Shown: one piece after another, positions 8,717 through 18,969 of the stretch
Position numbering within the stretch: position 1 is the stretch's first letter
How the letters are laid out: every line of letters starts with the position of its first letter
Assembly: GCA_009995595.1 (NCBI GenBank)
Contig: JAACPE010000001.1
Coordinates: 186,001 to 250,000, forward strand
Reading direction: 5' to 3'
Length of the DNA stretch: 64,000 nt
DNA from: Alphaproteobacteria bacterium
GTDB taxonomy: Bacteria > Pseudomonadota > Alphaproteobacteria > Micavibrionales > Micavibrionaceae
Position numbers and translations under genes: made by a program
Notes under the pieces: generated by a model
Databases searched by the model: none
The model's input: the letters and a program-made list of their open reading frames with translations, nothing else
Told to the model about the DNA's origin: nothing

Positions 8717-9190
8717 ATGGTAGAAAGTTTTATTGATAATATTTTGACCTTCTTGGAAGAAGAAAACCAAGTAGTGTTTTACTCACTATTATTAATATTT
8801 TTTGTAGGTTTGGGATACTATTTATCTAGTAGAGTTCATAAAGATACTATTGAAAGTCTTAAAACTCAAGTTCAGCTAAATATGACTGGAGAGAAAGTAG
8901 GAAAATTTAATGAAGAGCCTATAAAGATAAGGTTAAATACTTTGTACGAAGTTACAGAAATAATTTCTAAGCCTTGTTTTGAAATGAGCATGCCTGAAAA
9001 AATAAAGTTTAAGGGCTCTTTTCTGAAAGATTGTAAAAATAGTATAAATGAAATGCCTAATATAACTAAAAAACCTCTAGAATCTTTTACTATGTTTGAA
9101 CATAGAATTCCTAAGTTTATTTATCTAGAGTGTTCTGATAAAAGTGTTGAATATATTAATGTAATAGGAATTAAGGTCAATGAAGTTTAA
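8717..9190 (+). CDS. AT-rich orphan protein with N-terminal membrane segment
   Basis: A 157-residue protein of unknown function. One transmembrane helix spans about residues 19-36 (VVFYSLLLIFFVGLGYYL), followed by a polar Lys/Asn/Ile-rich domain. A good ribosome-binding sequence (TTAGGAGAG) precedes the ATG. Base composition is about 31% GC over the lines counted, far below neighbouring genes. It uses AT-rich codons including AGA and AGG, which points to recent acquisition. Its stop overlaps the yejF stop in a shared TTAA. I recognise no family. Confidence 0.75.
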   Translation: MVESFIDNILTFLEEENQVVFYSLLLIFFVGLGYYLSSRVHKDTIESLKTQVQLNMTGEKVGKFNEEPIKIRLNTLYEVTEIISKPCFEMSMPEKIKFKGSFLKDCKNSINEMPNITKKPLESFTMFEHRIPKFIYLECSDKSVEYINVIGIKVNEV

Positions 9191-10809
9191 GCGACTTTCT
9201 TCGCCTTTAAATTTAGTGCAGCTTCTAATAGGGTCTTTGTATAGGCTTCTTTAGGGTTGTTGAAGATATCCTCGGCTTTGCCGCTTTCAACAACTTTTCC
9301 GTTTTTCATGACAATCATATCATGCGCCATGGCGCGCACGACGCGCAGGTCGTGACTGATGAAAAGATAGGCAAGGTTATGTTTTTCTTGAAGCTCACGT
9401 AAGAGATCAATAATTTCGACCTGCACGGATACATCAAGGGCAGATGTCGGCTCATCGAGGACAACAAAATCAGGGCGGAGCACCATGGCGCGGGCTATTG
9501 CAACACGCTGGCGCTGGCCACCAGAAAATTCATGCGGATAACGATGGCGTGTTTGCGGGTCAAGATGCACTTGGTTGAGGACATCAATTACACGGGCGTC
9601 ACGTCCCGCCGCATCGAGTTCTGGGTTATGGACTTTTAAGCCTTCACCGATAATATCTGCGATGCTCATGCGGGGGGAGAGCGCACTAAAGGGGTCTTGG
9701 AAGACGACCTGCAGGTTTGAACGCAAGGGCGTCATGGCTTTGCGACCTAGGGCGGAGATATCAATACCGTTATAATCAATTTTTCCTTGGCCATTGATGA
9801 GACGTAGTAAGGCAAAACCAAGGGTTGATTTTCCTGATCCACTTTCGCCGACTACGCCGACAGTGTGGCCTGCTTTAATCTCAACATTAATGCCATCAAC
9901 AGCCTTAACCCAATCTGTTGTTTGACCCCAAAAGTTTTTGGCCTTTGGGAAATGCACTTTAATGTCTGTGCCTCGCATAATGCAGGAAGCGCCAGCTTGA
10001 GGCGTTTTGGCTAAGCCTTTTGGCATAGAGCCCAAGAGTTTTTTGGAATACGCATGCGCTGGATTTTTAAACACATTTTTTGCGTTGCCGCTTTCAACGA
10101 TTTCGCCGCTTTGCATGATGCACACATCATCAGCGAATTTTTCGACAATCGAGAGATCATGCGTAATCATAATCATCGCCATTTTTAAATCACGTTGAAG
10201 CTCTTCGAGCAGTTCTAAAATTTCGGCCTGCACGGTGACATCAAGAGCGGTTGTCGGTTCATCGGCAATAAGCAGCTCAGGGTTGTTCGCAAGCGCCATA
10301 GCGATCATCACGCGTTGGCGTTGTCCGCCCGATAATTCATGCGGGTAGGCCTTAAGGCGCTCTTTCATCATCGGCAATTGCACCATGTCGAGGAGCTCTT
10401 TAACGCGTTCCCGCGCTTTGCTCTCGCTCATGCGCTGATGCAGGCGAAGCGTTTCGCCAATTTGACGTTCAATCGAATGAAGGGGGTTCAGCGCCGTCAT
10501 GGGTTCTTGGAAGATCATACCAATTTGCGACCCGCGAATATGGCGCATAAAGCCATCTTTTTTCCCAACTAATTCCTCGCCGTTAAATTGAATGCTTGAG
10601 CCCTCGGGATGACGGGCGAGGGGATAGGGGAGAAGTTGCATGATCGACATGGCAGTCACAGATTTGCCCGAGCCACTCTCGCCGACTAACGCCATGGTTT
10701 GTCCCTCATGGACGTCAAAAGACACGTTTTTAACCGCGTGAAACAAGCGCTCTGGCGTTTTAAAATCAACGGAAAGATTTTTGACAGATAATAATGGCGC
10801 TTTGCTCAT
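9187..10809 (-). CDS. yejF: Peptide ABC transporter, duplicated ATPase YejF
   Basis: A 540-residue protein with two fused ABC ATPase domains, the arrangement of YejF in the YejABEF importer for oligopeptides and microcin C. Each half has Walker A ([23 protein letters not shown]), a Q-loop ([22 protein letters not shown]), the signature ([18 protein letters not shown]) and Walker B ([24 protein letters not shown]). In most genomes it follows yejE directly. Here argCBDF and an orphan on the other strand lie between them. The stop overlaps the convergent AT-rich gene by 4 bp. Confidence 0.93.
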
Positions 10810-10942
10810 GTTTTTATATTTAAGAGGTTTTTAAGTGATTGAGAAGATGTAACTCTTCAATCCATGGAATTAACCCCGAAATTAAGGTCTGTGTGATTAT
10901 TTGAGTATTATTTTATTTACATAATTTAAAAAAAGCCTTATG

Positions 10943-10957
10943 TTAATTCAAATTTAA
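10943..10957. promoter_or_regulatory. TTAA-N7-TTAA motif, candidate CtrA site upstream of the 11000 orphan
   Basis: TTAA-TTCAAAT-TTAA matches the CtrA consensus spacing exactly. It lies in the 190 bp divergent region between yejF and the orphan gene starting at 11000, 43 bp before that ATG. The position suits promoter control, but the region is AT-rich and a chance match is possible. Confidence 0.4.
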
Positions 10958-10999
10958 GCATTTTCTGGCTAAATGTGAGAGTAATTGCAAGAGGGTAAT

Positions 11000-11539
11000 A
11001 TGACCGATTATTTAAAACCGTCATTAACAGCATATTCGGATGTGCTGCGATCATTTGTTAAACTTGATAGTCTTGCCGCTCAAGCTTCGGGTTTATCGGT
11101 AGATACAGTCACAAAAATACAACATGTTGCTCATGCTATTAATCAAGCTGAGCGTACAGCCTTAAACCATCGTGAGCATATGCTTCGCAATAAAGATCAA
11201 TTTCAGGGGCAGGGGACTGATGCCTGGCAGAAGTCTAATTTTGAACCTTTTGTTGCGGCGGCCCGTCAGGCAAAAACGCTATTATCAGATGAGGGTTTTG
11301 TTCAGGAATTGGTCAATTCTTCAATTGTAGTGCCAGAGGGCGAACCACAATATTCTAGACTTAGACGAGATAGCGAAGATTATAGCTCTTTAACAAGTGC
11401 CTATGAATTAACTAGTAAGGCGAGAACTATTTCTGAAGTACTTCATAGAGAAGAGACAGCCAGAAGCCACACCATAAGAGATCGAGACGTTGGTCGGTAT
11501 GCCATTAGTTTTGACAGAAACCCTTTTCAACCAGTTTAA
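11000..11539 (+). CDS. Orphan helical protein
   Basis: A 179-residue polar, mainly helical protein of unknown function. The start at 11000 (MTDYLKPSL) is chosen because AGAGGG lies 5-6 nt upstream; an in-frame ATG at 10985 would include that sequence in the coding region. There is no signal peptide or membrane segment. The C-terminal third is rich in Arg, Ser and Glu (SRLRRDSEDYSS, HREETARSHTIRDRD). Its TAA stop shares a TTAA with the argF stop on the other strand. It lies between argF and yejF and may be under CtrA control given the upstream motif. Confidence 0.7.
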   Translation: MTDYLKPSLTAYSDVLRSFVKLDSLAAQASGLSVDTVTKIQHVAHAINQAERTALNHREHMLRNKDQFQGQGTDAWQKSNFEPFVAAARQAKTLLSDEGFVQELVNSSIVVPEGEPQYSRLRRDSEDYSSLTSAYELTSKARTISEVLHREETARSHTIRDRDVGRYAISFDRNPFQPV

Positions 11540-12429
11540 ACCACAACGCCTGTCTCTTCTAAGCACCATGCTAATATTGCTTTTTGGGCATGTAGACGGT
11601 TTTCGGCCTCGTCTAATATAACGCTGGCGGGGGATTTGGCGACGTCTTGGCTCACTTCTTCCCATTCATGGATGGGCATGCAGTGCATAAAGATGGCGTG
11701 TTCTTTGGCAAGTGCCATTAAGCCACTATTGACCTGATACGGCCAAAATTTATCAAGCGTTTTACCTTCTTGTCCCATGGATACCCATGTGTCTGTTACC
11801 AAAACATCAGCATCTTTTGCAGCGGCTTTGGCGTCGCTTGTTACGGTGCAGCGTTTATCGGCGGTCGGTATAATGTCTTCGGGGACGGCAGCAATAAATT
11901 CAAAATCAAATTTCTCGCTGGCATCAACGAAGCTTTGGGTGACGTTGTTATAATCACCAAACCATGCAATTTTTTTGCCTTGTATACCGCCCAGTTTCTC
12001 TTCGATTGTCATCACATCTGCCATGATTTGGCAGGGGTGGGAAATATCGGTCATGCCGTTAATGACGGGGATGGTGGCGTGTTTAGCAAGCTCTTCCATC
12101 ATCGCATGATCGCTGAGACGGAGCATAATACCATCAACAAAACGGGACATAACTTGCGCGGTGCTCTCCACGCTTTCTGACCCGCCCAGTTGAATGTCAC
12201 TTTTATTAAGCACAATCGAGTGACCGCCCAGTTGTTTCATTGCCACTTCAAAGCTCATGCGTGTGCGGGTCGAGCGTTTATCAAACATCATCGCGAGCGA
12301 AAGCCCTTTGAACAGTTGCGGAGGGTTAAATTTTTGTGCTTTTAATTGATGGGCGTTTTTGATGATATCTTTTAACAGATCCGCATCAAAATCGCGCAGG
12401 TTAATAAAATGTCTGGGTGTGTTTGGCAT
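11536..12429 (-). CDS. argF: Ornithine carbamoyltransferase
   Basis: Converts ornithine and carbamoyl phosphate to citrulline. The start at 12429 (MPNTPRHFINLRDF) is preferred to 12441 because GAGGG, inside the end of argD, sits about 6 nt upstream. It gives 297 residues, normal for the family. Visible motifs are the carbamoyl-phosphate loop STRTRMSFE, HPCQ, DTWVSMGQE and HCMP, plus DEAENRLHAQKA near the end. The stretch after HCMP reads IHEWEEV where many relatives have AHRGEEV, an unusual but non-catalytic change. Last gene of the argC-argB-argD-argF operon. Confidence 0.94.
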   Translation of the reverse strand: MPNTPRHFINLRDFDADLLKDIIKNAHQLKAQKFNPPQLFKGLSLAMMFDKRSTRTRMSFEVAMKQLGGHSIVLNKSDIQLGGSESVESTAQVMSRFVDGIMLRLSDHAMMEELAKHATIPVINGMTDISHPCQIMADVMTIEEKLGGIQGKKIAWFGDYNNVTQSFVDASEKFDFEFIAAVPEDIIPTADKRCTVTSDAKAAAKDADVLVTDTWVSMGQEGKTLDKFWPYQVNSGLMALAKEHAIFMHCMPIHEWEEVSQDVAKSPASVILDEAENRLHAQKAILAWCLEETGVVV

Positions 12430-12430
12430 G

Positions 12431-13654
12431 TTAGCCCTCATATTTAATTAGGTTTTTGTTGTTCTTAAGAACATCGCTGATAACGGCCACAGCTTTATCA
12501 ATTTCTTCGTTAGAAATAATAAGCGGTGGCGTTAGGCGGAGCGTGTTTTTACCAGCCTGCGTTGCCATTAATCCTGCCTCTAAAAGCTCATGAAGGAGTT
12601 CTTTGATTTGATATTTTGTATCAATACCAATCATCAAGCCTTCGCCCTTAACGGCCTTAATGGCATTGCCTGTTTCATTGTGCAACGCGCCCAGTCGTTC
12701 ACGGAAATAAAGACTGGCTTCGCGCACGCGTTTTAAGAATTCAGGTCTTACAATTTCGCTCACCACGTGATAGGCGACATTGGTGGCAAGCGGGTTGCCT
12801 GCATAGGTTGACCCATGGTCACCTGCATTAAAGGCATCAGCAATTTTCTCTTTGGCCATAAACGCGCCAACGGGAAAGCCGCCGCCAAGCCCTTTTGCAA
12901 GGCAGGTAATATCCGGCTCATAATCAAAATGGGCGTGTGCCATAAGTTTGCCCATACGCCCCATGCCAGATTGAATTTCATCAGAAATAAGAAGGATGTT
13001 ATTGTCATCGCAAAGGTCACGCAAGCCTTTGAAAAATTCTGGTGTGCCTGCGGTCAATCCGCCTTCACCTTGAACAGGCTCTACCATAATAGCGCAGATT
13101 TTATCAGTGATGAGCGCTTTGACGCTATCGAGATCATTATAGGTTGCAAAATGAAAGCCTGGAAGATAGGGCGCAAATTGGGGTTGATGGCGTGATTTTT
13201 CAGTTGCCGATACCGCGCCATAGGTGCGCCCGTGGAATGAGCTACCAAAAACAATAAACTCTTTTGCCTCCTCGCTCTTGTTTTGGTGTGCCCATGTACG
13301 GGCAAGTTTGAGAGAGCCCTCTACGGCTTCTGCGCCAGAGTTACAAAAGAATATTTTTTCCGCGCAGCAATGAGCAAGAAGGAGCTCTGCCGCTTTTACT
13401 TTTGGCTCTGTCGCGATAGAACCAATGCACATGGTGAAGCCCCGCTCAAGTTGTTCAGTGATGGCTTTATTAAAAGCAGGGTGATTATGCCCAAGCGCCG
13501 TGACCGCGATACCGCCCGCACAATCAAGATATTCTTTACCATCCATATCATAAAGATAAACGCCATTCCCGCGCCCAATCGCGATATGTTTGTGCGGATA
13601 AAGTTTCATATAGGCGTCATTGGCGCGGGTTTGTAGGTCGAGGTTTGTCGGCAT
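12431..13654 (-). CDS. argD: Acetylornithine aminotransferase
   Basis: A 407-residue class III PLP aminotransferase that makes N-acetylornithine. Features are GIAVTALGHNHP, CNSGAEAVEGSLKLAR, FHGRTYGAVSATEK, VEPVQGEGGL, ISDEIQSGMGR and the PLP lysine in CLAKGLGGGFPVGAF. HGSTYAGNPLA binds cofactor phosphate. The ATG overlaps the argB stop by one base (TAATG), and the stop lies 1 nt before argF. This spacing suggests translational coupling in the arg operon. Confidence 0.96.
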   Translation of the reverse strand: MPTNLDLQTRANDAYMKLYPHKHIAIGRGNGVYLYDMDGKEYLDCAGGIAVTALGHNHPAFNKAITEQLERGFTMCIGSIATEPKVKAAELLLAHCCAEKIFFCNSGAEAVEGSLKLARTWAHQNKSEEAKEFIVFGSSFHGRTYGAVSATEKSRHQPQFAPYLPGFHFATYNDLDSVKALITDKICAIMVEPVQGEGGLTAGTPEFFKGLRDLCDDNNILLISDEIQSGMGRMGKLMAHAHFDYEPDITCLAKGLGGGFPVGAFMAKEKIADAFNAGDHGSTYAGNPLATNVAYHVVSEIVRPEFLKRVREASLYFRERLGALHNETGNAIKAVKGEGLMIGIDTKYQIKELLHELLEAGLMATQAGKNTLRLTPPLIISNEEIDKAVAVISDVLKNNKNLIKYEG

Positions 13655-14520
13655 TATTTTGCTTCCTTTTCTTCTTCGTATATTTCTTTTTCATGCGAAC
13701 GCACAATCATCGTCCCTGTTCCGTCAGAGGTGTAAATTTCATTGCGTAAGCTGTCTTTTTTAAACCCATTGAGAATATGAATACGCTTTACGCCTGCTTT
13801 TAAGGCGGCAATACAGTTTTCTAATTTGACGCGCATGCCGCCTGTTGCTGTTTGATTGGCGATGAGGGCTTCTATTTCGCGTGTTGTCAAAACGGACTGC
13901 ACCGTCCCATCAACAAGAACGCCGTCTACATCCGTCATAAAGATGAGCTTGTTCGCTTTTGTTGCGCTCGCGATTTCAACGGCGACATTGTCGGCATTAA
14001 TATTGAGCGCTGTGCCTTCATCCGTAAAGGCCAAGCACGGCATCACGGCAAGATTTGTTGCGCCAAAGTGATCGCGAATATTTTTATCATTAATGTCAAT
14101 TAATGTTCCATCAAAACGCTGCATGCCTGCCTCATTGGGGCGGCGTAAAGAATGCGCCCAGTGTGGGGGGATGGCGTTAAAAACATTAGAAGGGAGTTTT
14201 GCTTTTACGAGGCTTTCAGAGATTTTAAACCCTAAATCACCCGCTAATACTTTTTTGATTATTTTAATATCGGTGCAGGAGGATATCCGCCGCCCATTGA
14301 TTTTTGTTGGCGTAATACCTGCCTCAAGCATTGCGGCATCTATTGCCTCACCGCCGCCATAAATCAAAAGAACGTTGATGTTATCATGGGTGAGTTCTTG
14401 AATATTCGCGATCAAGTTTTCACGGGCGTTGATATCGGTGATTATACGTCCACCAGCCTTGATAACAAAAAGCTGATCACGAAAAAGTTGACGATAGAAC
14501 TGTTGAAAAGATTTTATCAT
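13654..14520 (-). CDS. argB: Acetylglutamate kinase (divergent)
   Basis: A 288-residue amino-acid kinase fold protein phosphorylating N-acetylglutamate, the second step of arginine synthesis. Motifs are FVIKAGGRII (usually K-Y/L-GG), LLIYGGGEAID, KINGRRIS, ALNINADNVAVEIA, LIFMTDVDGVL and TGGMRVKLENCIAAL. The N-terminal lysine-GG loop and the spacing between the two glycine loops differ from common ArgB, so it is a divergent branch. Function follows from its position between argC and argD and from the paired NADN and TDVDGVL motifs. It starts 9 bp after the argC stop. Confidence 0.88.
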   Translation of the reverse strand: MIKSFQQFYRQLFRDQLFVIKAGGRIITDINARENLIANIQELTHDNINVLLIYGGGEAIDAAMLEAGITPTKINGRRISSCTDIKIIKKVLAGDLGFKISESLVKAKLPSNVFNAIPPHWAHSLRRPNEAGMQRFDGTLIDINDKNIRDHFGATNLAVMPCLAFTDEGTALNINADNVAVEIASATKANKLIFMTDVDGVLVDGTVQSVLTTREIEALIANQTATGGMRVKLENCIAALKAGVKRIHILNGFKKDSLRNEIYTSDGTGTMIVRSHEKEIYEEEKEAK

Positions 14521-14529
14521 GAGGGTGCT

Positions 14530-15525
14530 TTATGGATAAATGGGGCTATTAAAATTTAGGCCAAGTGTTTCATTAAGGCCAAACATTATGTTCATATTTT
14601 GAACAGCTGTACCCGATGCACCGCGTAAGAGATTATCAAGCGCCCCTTGGGCGATCCATTGGCCATTATGGCCTTGGGCGTAATGCACATCCACAAAGTT
14701 AGTGCTCACTACATTTGTCATTTCACACTTGTTCACGATACGTGTGAAGGGGTGATTGTATAGAACGCTTAAATCTGGTTCGCTATCACATGTCACAAAA
14801 CCATTGGCGAATATACCGCGCAGGAAAGGGCCGACAGTCGGGGCAAAGTTAAATTGGTCTTCTTTAAGGCCGCTCGTAGCTAAAATCTCGGGGGTGTGGC
14901 GGTGTTCATTAACCAGATAACTACGGATATTTTGGGCGCAGAAAGGATGATCCACGGGGTCACGGGCGGCACGTCCTCCGCCGCTTGTCCCTGAAATGGC
15001 GATAACATCTGCACCGCTCATTTTATTTTTAAAGGGCAGGAGGAGGATTTGAATTAAAAGTGCAAAACAGCCGGGATTGGCCACGGCGTTTGCTGTCTTG
15101 ATTTGCTCTCTATACACTTCAGGGAGGCCATAAACGAATGTGCCGTTCAACAGATCAGGGTGTTGATGGGGGATGTTATAATACCGCTCATAGGTTGCAT
15201 GATCATTCAGGCGAAAATCTGCAGAAAAATCTATAAGCTTTGTTTTACCTAAAAAGGCAGGGGCCACTTCCTGCGCGGCCTTATGGGGGAGGCATAAAAA
15301 GACGATATCGCTCTCCTGCGCGACTGTGTCATGGTCTGTATTTGTGATTGTGCAGCCCTCAATATGAGAGAGGCGCGGAAATAGATCTGAGAGCGGTGTA
15401 CCGTCATGTTGGCGCGATACGAGATATTTTAATTCTACCTGTGGGTGTTGCAAAAGACAGCGCAGCAGCTCTGTTCCTGTGTAGCCTGTCACACCGATAA
15501 TGGAGACTTTAATTTTATTACTCAT
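14530..15525 (-). CDS. argC: N-acetyl-gamma-glutamyl-phosphate reductase
   Basis: A 331-residue NADPH-dependent reductase, the third step of arginine synthesis. It has the Rossmann start VSIIGVTGYTGTELLRCLLQHP, the catalytic cysteine in ANPGCFALL, and SGTSGGGRAA. It is the first structural gene of the arg operon. A 138 nt transcribed leader separates it from a short arginine-rich ORF upstream. No strong Shine-Dalgarno precedes its ATG (GGUUGUAGAAU AUG), leaving room for translational control. Confidence 0.95.
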   Translation of the reverse strand: MSNKIKVSIIGVTGYTGTELLRCLLQHPQVELKYLVSRQHDGTPLSDLFPRLSHIEGCTITNTDHDTVAQESDIVFLCLPHKAAQEVAPAFLGKTKLIDFSADFRLNDHATYERYYNIPHQHPDLLNGTFVYGLPEVYREQIKTANAVANPGCFALLIQILLLPFKNKMSGADVIAISGTSGGGRAARDPVDHPFCAQNIRSYLVNEHRHTPEILATSGLKEDQFNFAPTVGPFLRGIFANGFVTCDSEPDLSVLYNHPFTRIVNKCEMTNVVSTNFVDVHYAQGHNGQWIAQGALDNLLRGASGTAVQNMNIMFGLNETLGLNFNSPIYP

Positions 15526-15663
15526 ATTCTACAACCACTTGTTTTATTTGCACATAATCATACGGACTTCAGCCAGTTGTTACCAGTCTTAAGGAGAACA
15601 TTTGTAGTGATTTGAGAAAGAACTAGGTCAGCACAAACAGCCATCCCCTAAAACGGGTAATGG
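15526..15663 (-). promoter_or_regulatory. arg operon leader RNA with alternative pairings (candidate attenuator)
   Basis: Untranslated RNA between the leader ORF and argC. Two nested stems are visible. The outer is CACAAAC (15688-15682, inside the leader ORF) with GUUUGUG (15638-15632). The inner is CCAUUACCC (15663-15655) with GGGGAUGG (15648-15641), with loop GUUUUA. A downstream UGGUAAC (15585-15579) can instead pair with the GUUAACCA/UUACC region. No GC-rich hairpin with a clear U run is seen. Termination, if any, could use the weak CUGUUUGU tract after the inner stem, Rho, or translational control. Confidence 0.5.
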
Positions 15664-15699
15664 TTAACGGCGGCGGCGTCGGTTTGTGTTGTTGTTCAT
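15664..15699 (-). CDS. Putative arginine leader peptide MNNNTNRRRRR upstream of argC
   Basis: An 11-codon ORF: ATG, AAC x3, ACA, AAC, then CGA CGC CGC CGC CGT and TAA. Five consecutive Arg codons directly before the stop, 138 nt upstream of an arginine biosynthetic operon on the same strand, is the hallmark of an attenuation leader peptide such as trpL or hisL. There is no Shine-Dalgarno. The predicted transcription start falls on the A of the ATG, so it would be translated as a leaderless mRNA, as reported for trpL of Sinorhizobium. Too short for ordinary gene finders. Function is inferred from the sequence. Confidence 0.75.
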   Translation of the reverse strand: MNNNTNRRRRR

Positions 15700-15705
15700 G
15701 ATGAT

Positions 15706-15734
15706 ACTAAAGCGTGTATTGATTAACGCGTCAA
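15706..15734 (-). promoter_or_regulatory. Sigma-70-type promoter of the arg operon
   Basis: On the minus strand, TTGACG (15734-15729), a 17 bp spacer and TTTAGT (15711-15706). The -35 box starts 7 nt after the yejE stop codon and is preceded by an AT-rich stretch. Six bases separate the -10 box from the ATG of the leader ORF, so the start of transcription would be the A at 15699 or very close to it. Confidence 0.65.
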
Positions 15735-15741
15735 CTATAAA

Positions 15742-16767
15742 TTATAAATTCGTCTTTCTAGGATCAAAAGCATCGCGCACGGCTTCGCCGATGAAGGTCA
15801 GGAGCGACAGCATGATTGCGAGGGAGAGAAAAGCGGTTATCCCGAGCCATGGGGCTTGAAGGTTGTTTTTACCCTGCGCCAGTAACTCCCCCAGTGAGGC
15901 AGAGCCGGGTGGAAGGCCAAGGCCAAGGAAATCAAGCGAGGTCAGCGCCGTAATTGACCCCGTTAAAATAAACGGCATGAGCGTTAATGTTGCCACCATC
16001 GCATTGGGCAGAACATGACGGCGCATTATGGTCAGGTTTGACACACCCAGTGCATTGGCGGCCTTGACGTAGTCAAAGTTACGCGTGCGCAAAAATTCGG
16101 CGCGGACAACATCAACAAGGCTCACCCATGAAAAGAGGAGGAGAATAAGGAGTAAAGTCCAAAATCCCGGCACAAACATGGCAGAGAAAATAATCAGGAT
16201 GTAAAGCGAGGGCAGGGACGACCAGACCTCAATAAAGCGCTGCATGATGAGGTCTAAACGCCCGCCATAATATCCCTGAAACGCGCCCGCCGTGATACCG
16301 ATAATGGAGCTGATAATCGTAAGCGCCAATCCAAAAAGAACGGATATGCGAAAGCCATAAATAACCCGCGCCGCAACATCGCGCCCCTGGTCATCTGTGC
16401 CAAATATGTTCTCAGCCGTGGGCGCAGAGGGGGCGGGGGTGGGCAGGTCATAATTGATGGTGTCGTATGAAAAACGAATTGGCGGCCAGATCATGTAGCC
16501 TTTGGCATTAATTAGGTCAGCAACAAAGGGGTCGCGGTAGTCGGCCTCGGTTTCGAAATCTCCCCCAAATTTGGTTTCGGGGTAGTTTTTAAAGACTGGG
16601 GCATAAAGTCCGCCATCATAACTAATCAAGAGGGGCTTGTCATTGGCCACAAATTCCGCCGATAAACAGAGCAAGAGCAAGCCAAGGAAAATCCAAAACG
16701 ACCAGAGCCCGCGCTTGTTTGCCTTAAACTGTGCCAGCCTGCGCTGTGTTATGGGTGAAAAAGTCAT
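15742..16767 (-). CDS. yejE: Peptide ABC transporter permease YejE
   Basis: A 341-residue inner-membrane permease. An N-terminal helix (WSFWIFLGLLLLCLSAEFVA) is followed by a periplasmic domain containing FGTDDQGRDVAARVIYGFRISVLFG, typical of the OppC/DppC branch and of YejE. Five further membrane helices follow, with the EAA-type loop AANALGVSNLTIMRRHVLPNA that contacts the ATPase. It is separated from yejB by three small orphan genes and from yejF by the arg operon. The arg promoter begins immediately after its stop. Confidence 0.92.
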   Translation of the reverse strand: MTFSPITQRRLAQFKANKRGLWSFWIFLGLLLLCLSAEFVANDKPLLISYDGGLYAPVFKNYPETKFGGDFETEADYRDPFVADLINAKGYMIWPPIRFSYDTINYDLPTPAPSAPTAENIFGTDDQGRDVAARVIYGFRISVLFGLALTIISSIIGITAGAFQGYYGGRLDLIMQRFIEVWSSLPSLYILIIFSAMFVPGFWTLLLILLLFSWVSLVDVVRAEFLRTRNFDYVKAANALGVSNLTIMRRHVLPNAMVATLTLMPFILTGSITALTSLDFLGLGLPPGSASLGELLAQGKNNLQAPWLGITAFLSLAIMLSLLTFIGEAVRDAFDPRKTNL

Positions 16768-16811
16768 GAAAAGACATTAACGAAAGGCAAGCCATGCGCA
16801 AAGTAAAATTA

Positions 16812-17246
16812 CTAATTCATCCGCGCATTTGGTCGTGGTACAGCAGAGCCTAAGGCAAATTCGCCCAGAGATTGAGTTAATTCTCTTGGCATATTTAGGC
16901 CTTTTAGCCCATTGAGGGCCTGCAAAGCTGCGTTTGCTATAGCTTCTTGATTATAACGATAAATTAGATTGTTACGTTGTGCGTTTATCAATTCATTTAG
17001 AACTTCTGCGCCGGCATCTTCTAAATCAACGGCATTAAATTTATGCATTTCTTCGATAGCCTCAACGCTCATTTGGCGCACTTCGGCACATAAACGCATA
17101 GCGTAGTCACATTGTTGTGAAACAGTCATTGATTTTTCAAGCATGAGCAATTGCGACAATTTTTTCAATCGAATTTCGTTGTCTGTTGCAATTGCAAAAG
17201 CCTTTATTAAGTCGAGTGCTTCATCAAATTTATCATCGTGTAACAT
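16812..17246 (-). CDS. Orphan helical protein (144 aa)
   Basis: A 144-residue, mainly helical, acidic protein with no signal peptide or membrane segment. I recognise no family. It begins 4 nt after the stop of the 90-residue gene upstream, so the two are probably co-transcribed. The C-terminal tail is ALGSAVPRPNARMN. Base composition resembles its neighbours. It lies between yejB and yejE, where most genomes have no gene. Confidence 0.65.
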   Translation of the reverse strand: MLHDDKFDEALDLIKAFAIATDNEIRLKKLSQLLMLEKSMTVSQQCDYAMRLCAEVRQMSVEAIEEMHKFNAVDLEDAGAEVLNELINAQRNNLIYRYNQEAIANAALQALNGLKGLNMPRELTQSLGEFALGSAVPRPNARMN

Positions 17247-17250
17247 GGTA

Positions 17251-17523
17251 TTAATGAATTTCGAAGCTACCAGTGCCCGTTTTTTCCATGAGGGAGAGGC
17301 GAAAGCGTTGTTCAGTCGTGAGGGGCAGGTTATCGTTATGAGGGATAGGCATTTGCGGCATATCCATGCCAGCGCGCAGGTTTTTTAGGTCGCGTTTAGC
17401 GATAGATATTGTCTCGTTTACAAGGTCTTTGAGAGCCTGTTCATCCTGAGCCGTCACTTCACCGTTATCGCGAATTGAATCGCGAACCGATGACAGTTTT
17501 TTTGTTACTTTTTTAATATTCAT
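17251..17523 (-). CDS. Orphan small protein (90 aa)
   Basis: A 90-residue protein of unknown function. The N-terminal half is basic and helical (MNIKKVTKKLSSVRDSIRD) and the middle is Pro/Met-rich (MDMPQMPIPHNDNLP). GGGAC about 4 nt upstream of the ATG may serve as ribosome-binding site. It is followed 4 nt later by the 144-residue orphan, so they form a pair inserted between yejB and yejE. No homology was recognised. Confidence 0.6.
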   Translation of the reverse strand: MNIKKVTKKLSSVRDSIRDNGEVTAQDEQALKDLVNETISIAKRDLKNLRAGMDMPQMPIPHNDNLPLTTEQRFRLSLMEKTGTGSFEIH

Positions 17524-17625
17524 CGCCGTCCCTGCGTCTATATTTTTTTGCTGTATTTGCTACAGGCGTTTTTGGAATGTGAAAACCTTACCCCTAAAAC
17601 ATTATTCTGTCAAATAGAATTAGCT

Positions 17626-17820
17626 TCATTTAGCTGTTAAAGCCGTTCTAATTCCTGCTCCTAAAACTTGCGGTACATTTGTACCAATCGGAGGATGATT
17701 TTCTAACATTTGTGCTACTTGAAATGCTCGCTCTCGAGCGAGATCTGGATCGAATGGCCCTGATGATTGACTGAATAACGGTCTCATAACTAATTCTGAT
17801 ATTTCAGGACGTCCACTCAT
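17626..17820 (-). CDS. Orphan small protein (64 aa)
   Basis: A 64-residue protein starting MSGRPEISELVMRPLF. The well-placed AAGAGGTG 5 nt upstream of the ATG supports translation. It has a helical core (DPDLARERAFQVAQMLENHPP) and no membrane segment. It lies 42 bp downstream of yejB and 102 bp upstream of the 90-residue orphan. No family recognised. Confidence 0.6.
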   Translation of the reverse strand: MSGRPEISELVMRPLFSQSSGPFDPDLARERAFQVAQMLENHPPIGTNVPQVLGAGIRTALTAK

Positions 17821-17862
17821 TATACACCTCTTTTTATTGTTGAGTTTTATATTTTATGGAAA

Positions 17863-18969
17863 TTACACTGTTCTGGCGGCAAAGTCAATCCTTGGATCCA
17901 CTAAAACATAAACAACATCCCGAATAAGGGTTGTAATCAGACCCATAAGGGCAAAAATATATAAAGTGCCGAGCACGACAGGGTAGTCCCTGTTAATCAC
18001 ACTCTCGTAGCCCAAAAGCCCCAGCCCATCAAGGGAGAAGATCACCTCTATCAAGAGAGAGCCTGTAAAGAAAATCGCCAAAAATGCACTCGGAAAACCT
18101 GCAATGACAATAAGCATCGCGTTACGAAACACATGACCATAAAGCACTTGGTTTTGCTCTAACCCCTTTGCGCGGGCGGTGACAACATATTGTTTGTTCA
18201 CTTCATCCAAAAATGAATTCTTGGTGAGCATTGTCAAACCTGCAAACCCACTAATCACCATTGCCGCAACGGGCAACACCATATGCCAAAGGTAATCGAG
18301 AACTTGCTGGATAAAGTTCATCTCATCAAACCCGTCAGATGTGAGGCCGCGCAGGGGAAAAATATCAAAATACCGCCCCCCTGCAAAAACAACGATGAGC
18401 AGAATTGCAAACATAAAAGACGGGATAGCATAGCCCGTAAACACCGCCGCCGATGTCCAGATATCAAATTTCTGCCCATCGGTCACGGCTTTTTTAATGC
18501 CAAGCGGGATCGATATAAGATAGATAATCAGCGTCGACCATAGGCCAAGGGATATTGACACAGGCATTTTTTCAAGCACGAGGGAAATAACAGATTTATC
18601 CTGATAATAACTCTCCCCCAGATCAAACTTGGCGTAATTCACCACCATTTGGAAAAAGCGTTCATGCGCGGGCTTATCAAAGCCATACATGGCCTCAAGC
18701 TCGGCTACGAATTGAGGGTCCAGACCTTGTGACCCGCGATATTTGCTTGATTGTCCAGTGGATTGCCCCGTTGATCCGACCGCCATATCGCCGCCCGCTG
18801 AGCCGCCGCCAAAACGCGCTGTGGCTTCAACGCCGTGACCTTGTAATTGGGCAATCATGCGCTCAACTGGCCCGCCCGGCACAAATTGGACAATAATAAA
18901 GCTGATCAACATAATCCCAAGCAAAGTCGGGATCATTAAGAGCAAGCGTTTGAGGAGATAATTAGCCAT
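17863..18969 (-). CDS. yejB: Peptide ABC transporter permease YejB
   Basis: A 368-residue inner-membrane permease of the DppB/OppB type. The first helix ([30 protein letters not shown]) is typical, followed by a long periplasmic segment (about residues 35-115) as in YejB. Five helices and the loop [21 protein letters not shown] follow. Its first eight bases (ATGGCTAA) overlap the end of the phosphatase gene, implying coupled translation with that gene rather than with yejA. Confidence 0.92.

Follow-up and report, generated by a model that had tools for sequence, protein, structure and literature searches.

The window analysed here, a 64-kb stretch of DNA, carries on its minus strand an operon for arginine biosynthesis, in which argC (N-acetyl-gamma-glutamyl-phosphate reductase, 14530-15525; TIGR01850) is the first gene and is followed by argB (acetylglutamate kinase, 13654-14520), argD (acetylornithine transaminase, 12431-13654; TIGR00707) and argF (ornithine carbamoyltransferase, 11536-12441; TIGR00658). 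The assignment of argB is based on PF00696 (AA_kinase), and its best NCBIfam match is TIGR00761 with 137 bits, below the cut-off of 151 bits. The argCBDF genes are enclosed by a yejBEF-like oligopeptide transporter locus (9187-18969), and in relatives M20-hydrolase and GNAT genes are found in their place within this locus.

Ahead of argC, an ORF for the leader peptide MNNNTNRRRRR can be read directly from the minus strand at 15699-15664, TAA included (ATG AAC AAC AAC ACA AAC CGA CGC CGC CGC CGT TAA), and a gap of 138 nt lies between its stop codon and the ATG of argC at 15525. Its five Arg codons (15667-15681) are all expected to be readable by tRNA-Arg(ACG). On the same strand, a -35 element TTGACG (15729-15734), a 17-nt spacer, a -10 element TTTAGT (15706-15711) and the 6 nt atcatc precede the leader ATG, and this spacing would place the transcription start at the A of the ATG. 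These elements, from the promoter and the 11-codon ORF to the distance from argC, had been pointed out in a sequence-only reading of this DNA and are all present. A simple consensus promoter scan did not call the leader promoter, TTTAGT being without A at position 2, and the case for the promoter is therefore its conservation across relatives and not its consensus strength. A further possible promoter, CTGGTA-N18-TATGAT, is located at 15557-15586 of the minus strand, in the interval between the attenuator and the first gene, and in the same region of several other genera a palindrome CTTG(A/C)AAG is followed by TTGCAT; such a putative second promoter may allow arginine-independent expression.

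In shuffled versions of the window, the pattern of promoter, ATG and four CGN codons was expected 0.02 times, and in the window itself a single site was found, with two overlapping matches. The leader is also the sole ATG mini-ORF of up to 30 aa with RRRR within the 64 kb. A looser pattern with three CGN codons gave no second Arg leader genome-wide in the own genome, the other matches not resembling short Arg leaders.

For the comparison across the family (Micavibrio relatives), searches with ArgC gave a match in 52 genomes, and 51 argC loci were counted because the match in G017 was weak and covered only a part of the query. Across the order, the pattern with four CGN codons gave mostly chance matches in coding regions, and the result became clean when the -10 element was added; the candidates in G028, G015, G078 (C169) and G061 were rejected since they lie inside genes or ahead of unrelated genes. 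In total, 41 leaders of homologous position and design, with 39 distinct peptides, were found in the family: 40 of them at the 51 argC loci (about 80%) and one before an acetyltransferase (GNAT) gene. Within the own genus, all seven argC-bearing genomes have the leader, with the peptides MNNNTNRRRRR, MNTNTNRRRPR, MNTVSTLGTLPRRRRT, MNIANVQNRRRRRN, MNTRNAQRRRRRLK and MDLDTTQLRRQRRK, and with MDKNCTYQSRRRIS in G004, where it stands 839 nt upstream and ahead of a gene inserted before argC. Three other genomes of this genus (G003, G008 and G009) gave no argC match and are possibly arginine auxotrophs. Other genera with argCBDF have leaders such as MLTQAYIPARRRRRTI, MNLVHITYPASRRRRGK, MKSTYALPQRRRPFRSSP and MTKGNTYVPATQSRRRTR, and the leader of G067 is degenerate. 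At 11 of the 51 argC loci no leader was found (G058, G013, G034, G015, G036, G066, G068, G101, G069, G064 and G022).

The position of the leader follows the start of the operon. In 27 further genomes it precedes a gene for a protein of about 350 aa and argC, about 1.2-1.4 kb upstream of argC, and in G122, which gave no argC match, MNMNTHIMAFHCRRRRRLNAVQCAILMCC is kept ahead of a GNAT gene at the same transporter locus. Because the leader relocates with the operon start in these genomes and in G004, we count this in favor of an attenuator. The protein of about 350 aa (for example L029:1941-2993) has a P-loop-like motif, GTSMDSGKTT, and has no match in Pfam, NCBIfam or PDB sequences; an assignment to DUF1611 was dropped after Pfam and NCBIfam gave no match, and its structure was predicted with a mean pLDDT of 50. 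The fact that GNAT-like genes take its place in G004 and G122 suggests that it has a role in the initial step of arginine synthesis.

While the leaders range from 10 to 29 aa and their N-termini are unrelated, the non-Arg part varying freely, the Arg run is kept. The distance from TTGAC to the ATG is 35-37 nt in 40 of the 41 leaders, although for most loci with the gene for the protein of about 350 aa the search itself required TTGAC, within a wider range; one of the 40, G100, reads TTGCA. Of the first 14 leaders, which were mostly found without a promoter condition, 13 have TTGAC as well, and a -10-like element stands at the same place in relatives; G005 has retained the leader and not the promoter. 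A Shine-Dalgarno-like stretch is absent 5' of the ATG in the window and in all 41 leaders, as the sequence-only reading had stated for the window. Judged from sequence, the leader would be of the leaderless type described for Sinorhizobium meliloti trpL, with a predicted transcription start at the AUG and no Shine-Dalgarno sequence, which agrees with that reading. Its proposal that ATG, Arg run and promoter be checked in related genomes was thus answered positively, the Arg run not being lost, and we regard it as almost certain that this ORF is real, conserved and selected as an arginine leader peptide.

Codon choice in the leaders differs from that in ordinary genes. The 166 Arg codons of the leaders are 83 CGA, 54 CGC, 22 CGU, 6 AGA, 1 AGG and no CGG, whereas the 138 Arg codons of eight long genes in the window are 46 CGU, 67 CGC, 3 CGA, 11 CGG, 7 AGA and 4 AGG. 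CGA therefore accounts for half of the leader Arg codons as against 2% in the neighboring genes (p = 1e-23; for CGG, p = 1e-4), with the comparison genes coming from a single genome and shared ancestry ignored in the p-values. Thirty tRNA loci were read in the own genome, and they include one tRNA-Arg(ACG), one tRNA-Arg(CCG) and one tRNA-Arg(TCT). By wobble, the ACG tRNA decodes CGU, CGC and CGA. Nearly all leader Arg codons thus rely on one isoacceptor, which fits the selective-charging theory, in which synonymous codon choice sets the sensitivity of an attenuator (PMC1183508).

Directly after the stop codon, a hairpin S is formed by CCAUUACCC-GUUUUA-GGGGAUGG and is followed by a weak U-tract UGUUUGUG (15641-15663, minus strand); in an alternative fold at S, the Arg codons are paired with GGGGAUGGC. 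Terminator-like hairpins in relatives were searched against dinucleotide shuffles, with at least four U in the 7 nt behind the hairpin and a start no more than 15 nt ahead of the stop, and were found at p<=0.05 in 22 of 41 leaders, with a combined p of about 7e-15 when shared ancestry is ignored. In the 29 best, the median start is at -5 relative to the stop, corresponding to the last Arg or the stop codon. If the footprint edge of a ribosome is assumed to be 12 nt past the A-site, 25 of these 29 hairpins would have 4 nt or more of their 5' arm covered by a ribosome positioned on the last Arg codon. In relatives, compensatory changes have preserved the counterpart hairpin: across an alignment of 14 leaders, 78% of the cells pair as against 21-37% when the alignment is slid, two-sided changes occur at six of ten pairs, and RNAalifold predicts a shorter version of S with 5 pairs. 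When the post-stop region was scored by itself with RNAfold, the z-scores lacked significance in the majority of genomes. In the own genus, the stability of S is ordinary in comparison with shuffles and only UGUUUGUG stands behind it; a simple terminator scan of the window called none on the transcribed strand. An intrinsic terminator between the leader and the first gene is thus well supported in many relatives and weak in the window itself, so that for the genus of the window termination, the off-step, is a prediction. The leader region gave no match to any Rfam model, whether of a T-box, a riboswitch or a leader, even with E up to 5 included.

A segment further downstream, UUCUCCUUAAGACUGGUAA (15580-15598, minus strand), shows complementarity to S over its loop and 3' arm, with a duplex of -19.7 kcal/mol that is equaled in 0.4% of shuffles. 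Such a segment, complementary to S over the same two parts, occurs throughout the genus and ends in CUGG about 80 nt past the stop. The native duplexes average -19.3 kcal/mol as against -14.5 kcal/mol for species-swapped ones, and the native value is reached by 0.2-3.6% of shuffles (combined p 5e-4, ancestry ignored). The corresponding pairing in other genera was found at p<=0.05 in 12 of 35 (combined p 3e-11, ancestry again ignored); examples are ACCCGAUUAGGCG with CGCUUAAUCGGU in G016 and CCUUCAGAGCGG with CCGUUCUGAAGG in G118. On this statistical evidence, the segment behind the Arg codons appears to have a choice of two partners that exclude each other, which is also the case in known attenuators. 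Since the downstream segment is transcribed after the U-tract of S, it cannot alone prevent termination there, and it would act as a stabilizer of read-through or a second layer of control and not as the primary antiterminator.

We consider it likely that the locus is an arginine-responsive, ribosome-mediated transcription attenuator, which would sense charged tRNA-Arg through the stop-proximal hairpin. The RNA would begin at the AUG, and the ribosome would load straight onto this leaderless 5' end. A shortage of charged tRNA-Arg(ICG) would make the ribosome pause on the run of CGA, CGC and CGU and cover the region of Arg and stop codons that makes up the 5' arm of S or adjoins it; with S blocked, its 3' half could instead join the downstream segment, and the polymerase would continue into argCBDF. 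With ample arginine, the ribosome would clear the run and depart at the stop, and S would fold, leading to termination at the adjoining U-tract. Features expected of an attenuator are found here, namely a short leader ORF before the operon and a run of end-product codons that is conserved where the rest has diverged; pausing, the direction of regulation, the arginine response and termination at S are what this model predicts. Of the arginine attenuation that had been proposed from the sequence, the leader and the Arg run have stood, while the arginine response, the transcription start and termination keep the status of predictions, the terminator of the genus being weak.

Three other explanations have to be weighed. 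An arginine leader peptide could act on Rho-dependent termination, RNA decay or translation and not on an intrinsic terminator, such that stalled and finished ribosomes would select either S or the long-range helix, and a site for Rho or an RNase in the C/U-rich stretch between the two would be hidden or exposed. The weak U-tract of S in the genus and the strong, co-varying long-range helix speak for this, as does Salmonella speF orf34, which has two Arg codons and depends on Rho and RNase G (PMC6386406), but in most relatives a U-tract stands directly behind S, and the downstream segment lies some 55-75 nt upstream of the start of argC, leaving the ribosome-binding site uncovered, so that we hold this explanation, although it is the main rival, to be rather unlikely.

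Considerably less probable in our judgment is an arrest by the nascent peptide in response to free arginine or ornithine, of the kind seen with the arginine attenuator peptide of fungi or the enterobacterial speFL. Poly-basic peptides can generally slow ribosomes, and the Arg run is close to the C-terminus; nevertheless no residue other than Arg is conserved among the 39 peptides, many of which have 10-15 aa and are insufficient to fill the exit tunnel, and the CGA bias indicates decoding rather than peptide sequence. The conserved arrest sequence that defines an arginine attenuator peptide is therefore not seen, the Arg run alone being conserved. It is equally hard to believe, and if anything harder, that the CGACGACG block is a binding site of a protein on DNA or RNA with an accidental Arg translation. 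The core CGACGNCG is indeed conserved as nucleotides, but the promoter-set ATG and the block always share one reading frame: under a search pattern that left the frame free, the CGN run is in frame at 18 of 18 arg loci as against 10 of 33 other matches (Fisher p = 5e-7, ancestry ignored). Codon positions 1 and 2 of the run are moreover fixed while position 3 varies, and the distance to the promoter varies also.

The attenuator preferred here can be compared with known systems. With the trp, his, leu and thr attenuators of E. coli and Salmonella (PMC1183508) it shares the run of product codons, exclusive folds and codon bias, and it differs from them in that the amino acid is arginine and the ORF is leaderless. 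Its stop-proximal hairpin, unlike theirs, begins on the regulatory or stop codons, and a paused ribosome would therefore block it directly. The S. meliloti trpL/rnTrpL (PMC10117765) is similar in being an alphaproteobacterial leaderless ORF, of 14 aa, at the 5' end of an attenuator transcript; arginine here replaces tryptophan, and for rnTrpL and peTrpL trans roles have been described. Candidate cysS leaders in Rhodobacterales (PMC8632094) are also among the closest described. Consecutive Arg codons are shared with Salmonella speF orf34, in which scarce arginine makes the ribosome pause and expression rise (PMC6386406), although it controls ornithine decarboxylase through a conserved 34-aa peptide with a Shine-Dalgarno sequence, and by means of Rho and RNase G rather than an intrinsic terminator. 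Leaders of 10-29 aa with unrelated N-termini, without a Shine-Dalgarno sequence and standing before arg genes rather than speF-potE do not belong to that class. In Staphylococcus aureus, the leader peptide rbfL likewise senses arginine shortage through Arg codons (PMC13009471), but it concerns translation of a biofilm regulator, pausing represses, and the codons are the rare AGA and AGG. The view of the sequence-only reading that no bacterial arginine leader of this kind is well described has thus to be narrowed, since speF orf34 and rbfL exist; it holds insofar as neither controls arginine synthesis. A comparative study of Actinobacteria reported no arginine RNA element there, T-boxes for arginine being mentioned elsewhere (PMC1262725). 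In the open-access papers searched, no leader peptide for arginine was encountered ahead of an operon for arginine synthesis, and an earlier description may exist in subscription journals.

Leaders of related build were observed elsewhere. In the own genome, a leaderless Leu leader MNKRAHTLLALLLLIAL stands before leuA with an ATG-to-ATG distance of 145 nt (L220:1530-1590; G000:C3:55348), and a long hairpin with a U-rich loop follows; being equally built, it represents a second leaderless leader of this kind in the organism. Leaderless leaders with Thr runs were seen before putative threonyl-tRNA synthetase (thrS) genes in L262 (G403; MNAMRQNPSTTTTTT...) and L257 (G474; MKHVGRTPLTTTTT...). Among the 385 sampled genomes of the class, there are two further Arg leaders, both before type-2 argC and in two other alphaproteobacterial families: MKSGRNIIRRRRPAPTARGR in G263 (L285) and, in G499 (L284), MINAATILFARRRRRISAVWAVDRV, followed by an FMN-binding-like gene and by a type-2 argC that was recognized by sequence similarity only. 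A match at G263:C84 is the start of a TetR-like gene and not a leader, and the order of G263 provided one more genome only, which has no argC match. Among 72 argC upstream regions of other bacteria, such an ORF was found in two only, both Gastranaerophilales-like. In these (L080 and L099), leaders with a Shine-Dalgarno sequence and ending in IRRRLIRQESY lie about 150 nt before argC, and a hairpin GCTTAATAAGAC-AGGA-GTCTTATTAAGC and a terminator AAGCCTCCC...GGGAGGCTTTTG stand ahead of argC, which looks like an independent arginine attenuator. Whether arginine attenuators are widespread and have evolved repeatedly, as the class found throughout the family, the examples of G263 and G499 and the version of L080 and L099 might indicate, is in our estimation an evenly balanced question.

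Leader-peptide attenuation is textbook knowledge for trp, his, leu, ilv, thr and phe, and control of arginine synthesis is usually credited to ArgR. ArgR, a DNA-binding protein through which many bacteria adjust their arg operons to arginine, was not detected in the family: a search with PF01316 gave none above the cut-off in 104 family genomes, and a control search was positive in 9 of 14 named genomes, E. coli and B. subtilis among them. This supports the earlier suggestion that the leader replaces ArgR. The kind of mechanism is already known, and only its arginine version on an arginine biosynthetic operon would be new with regard to the open-access papers searched. The leader is probably a switch that runs the operon only when arginine is short. 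For a family without detectable ArgR, it offers a testable answer to how arginine synthesis is controlled, and 41 natural variants of the leader are available for its study.
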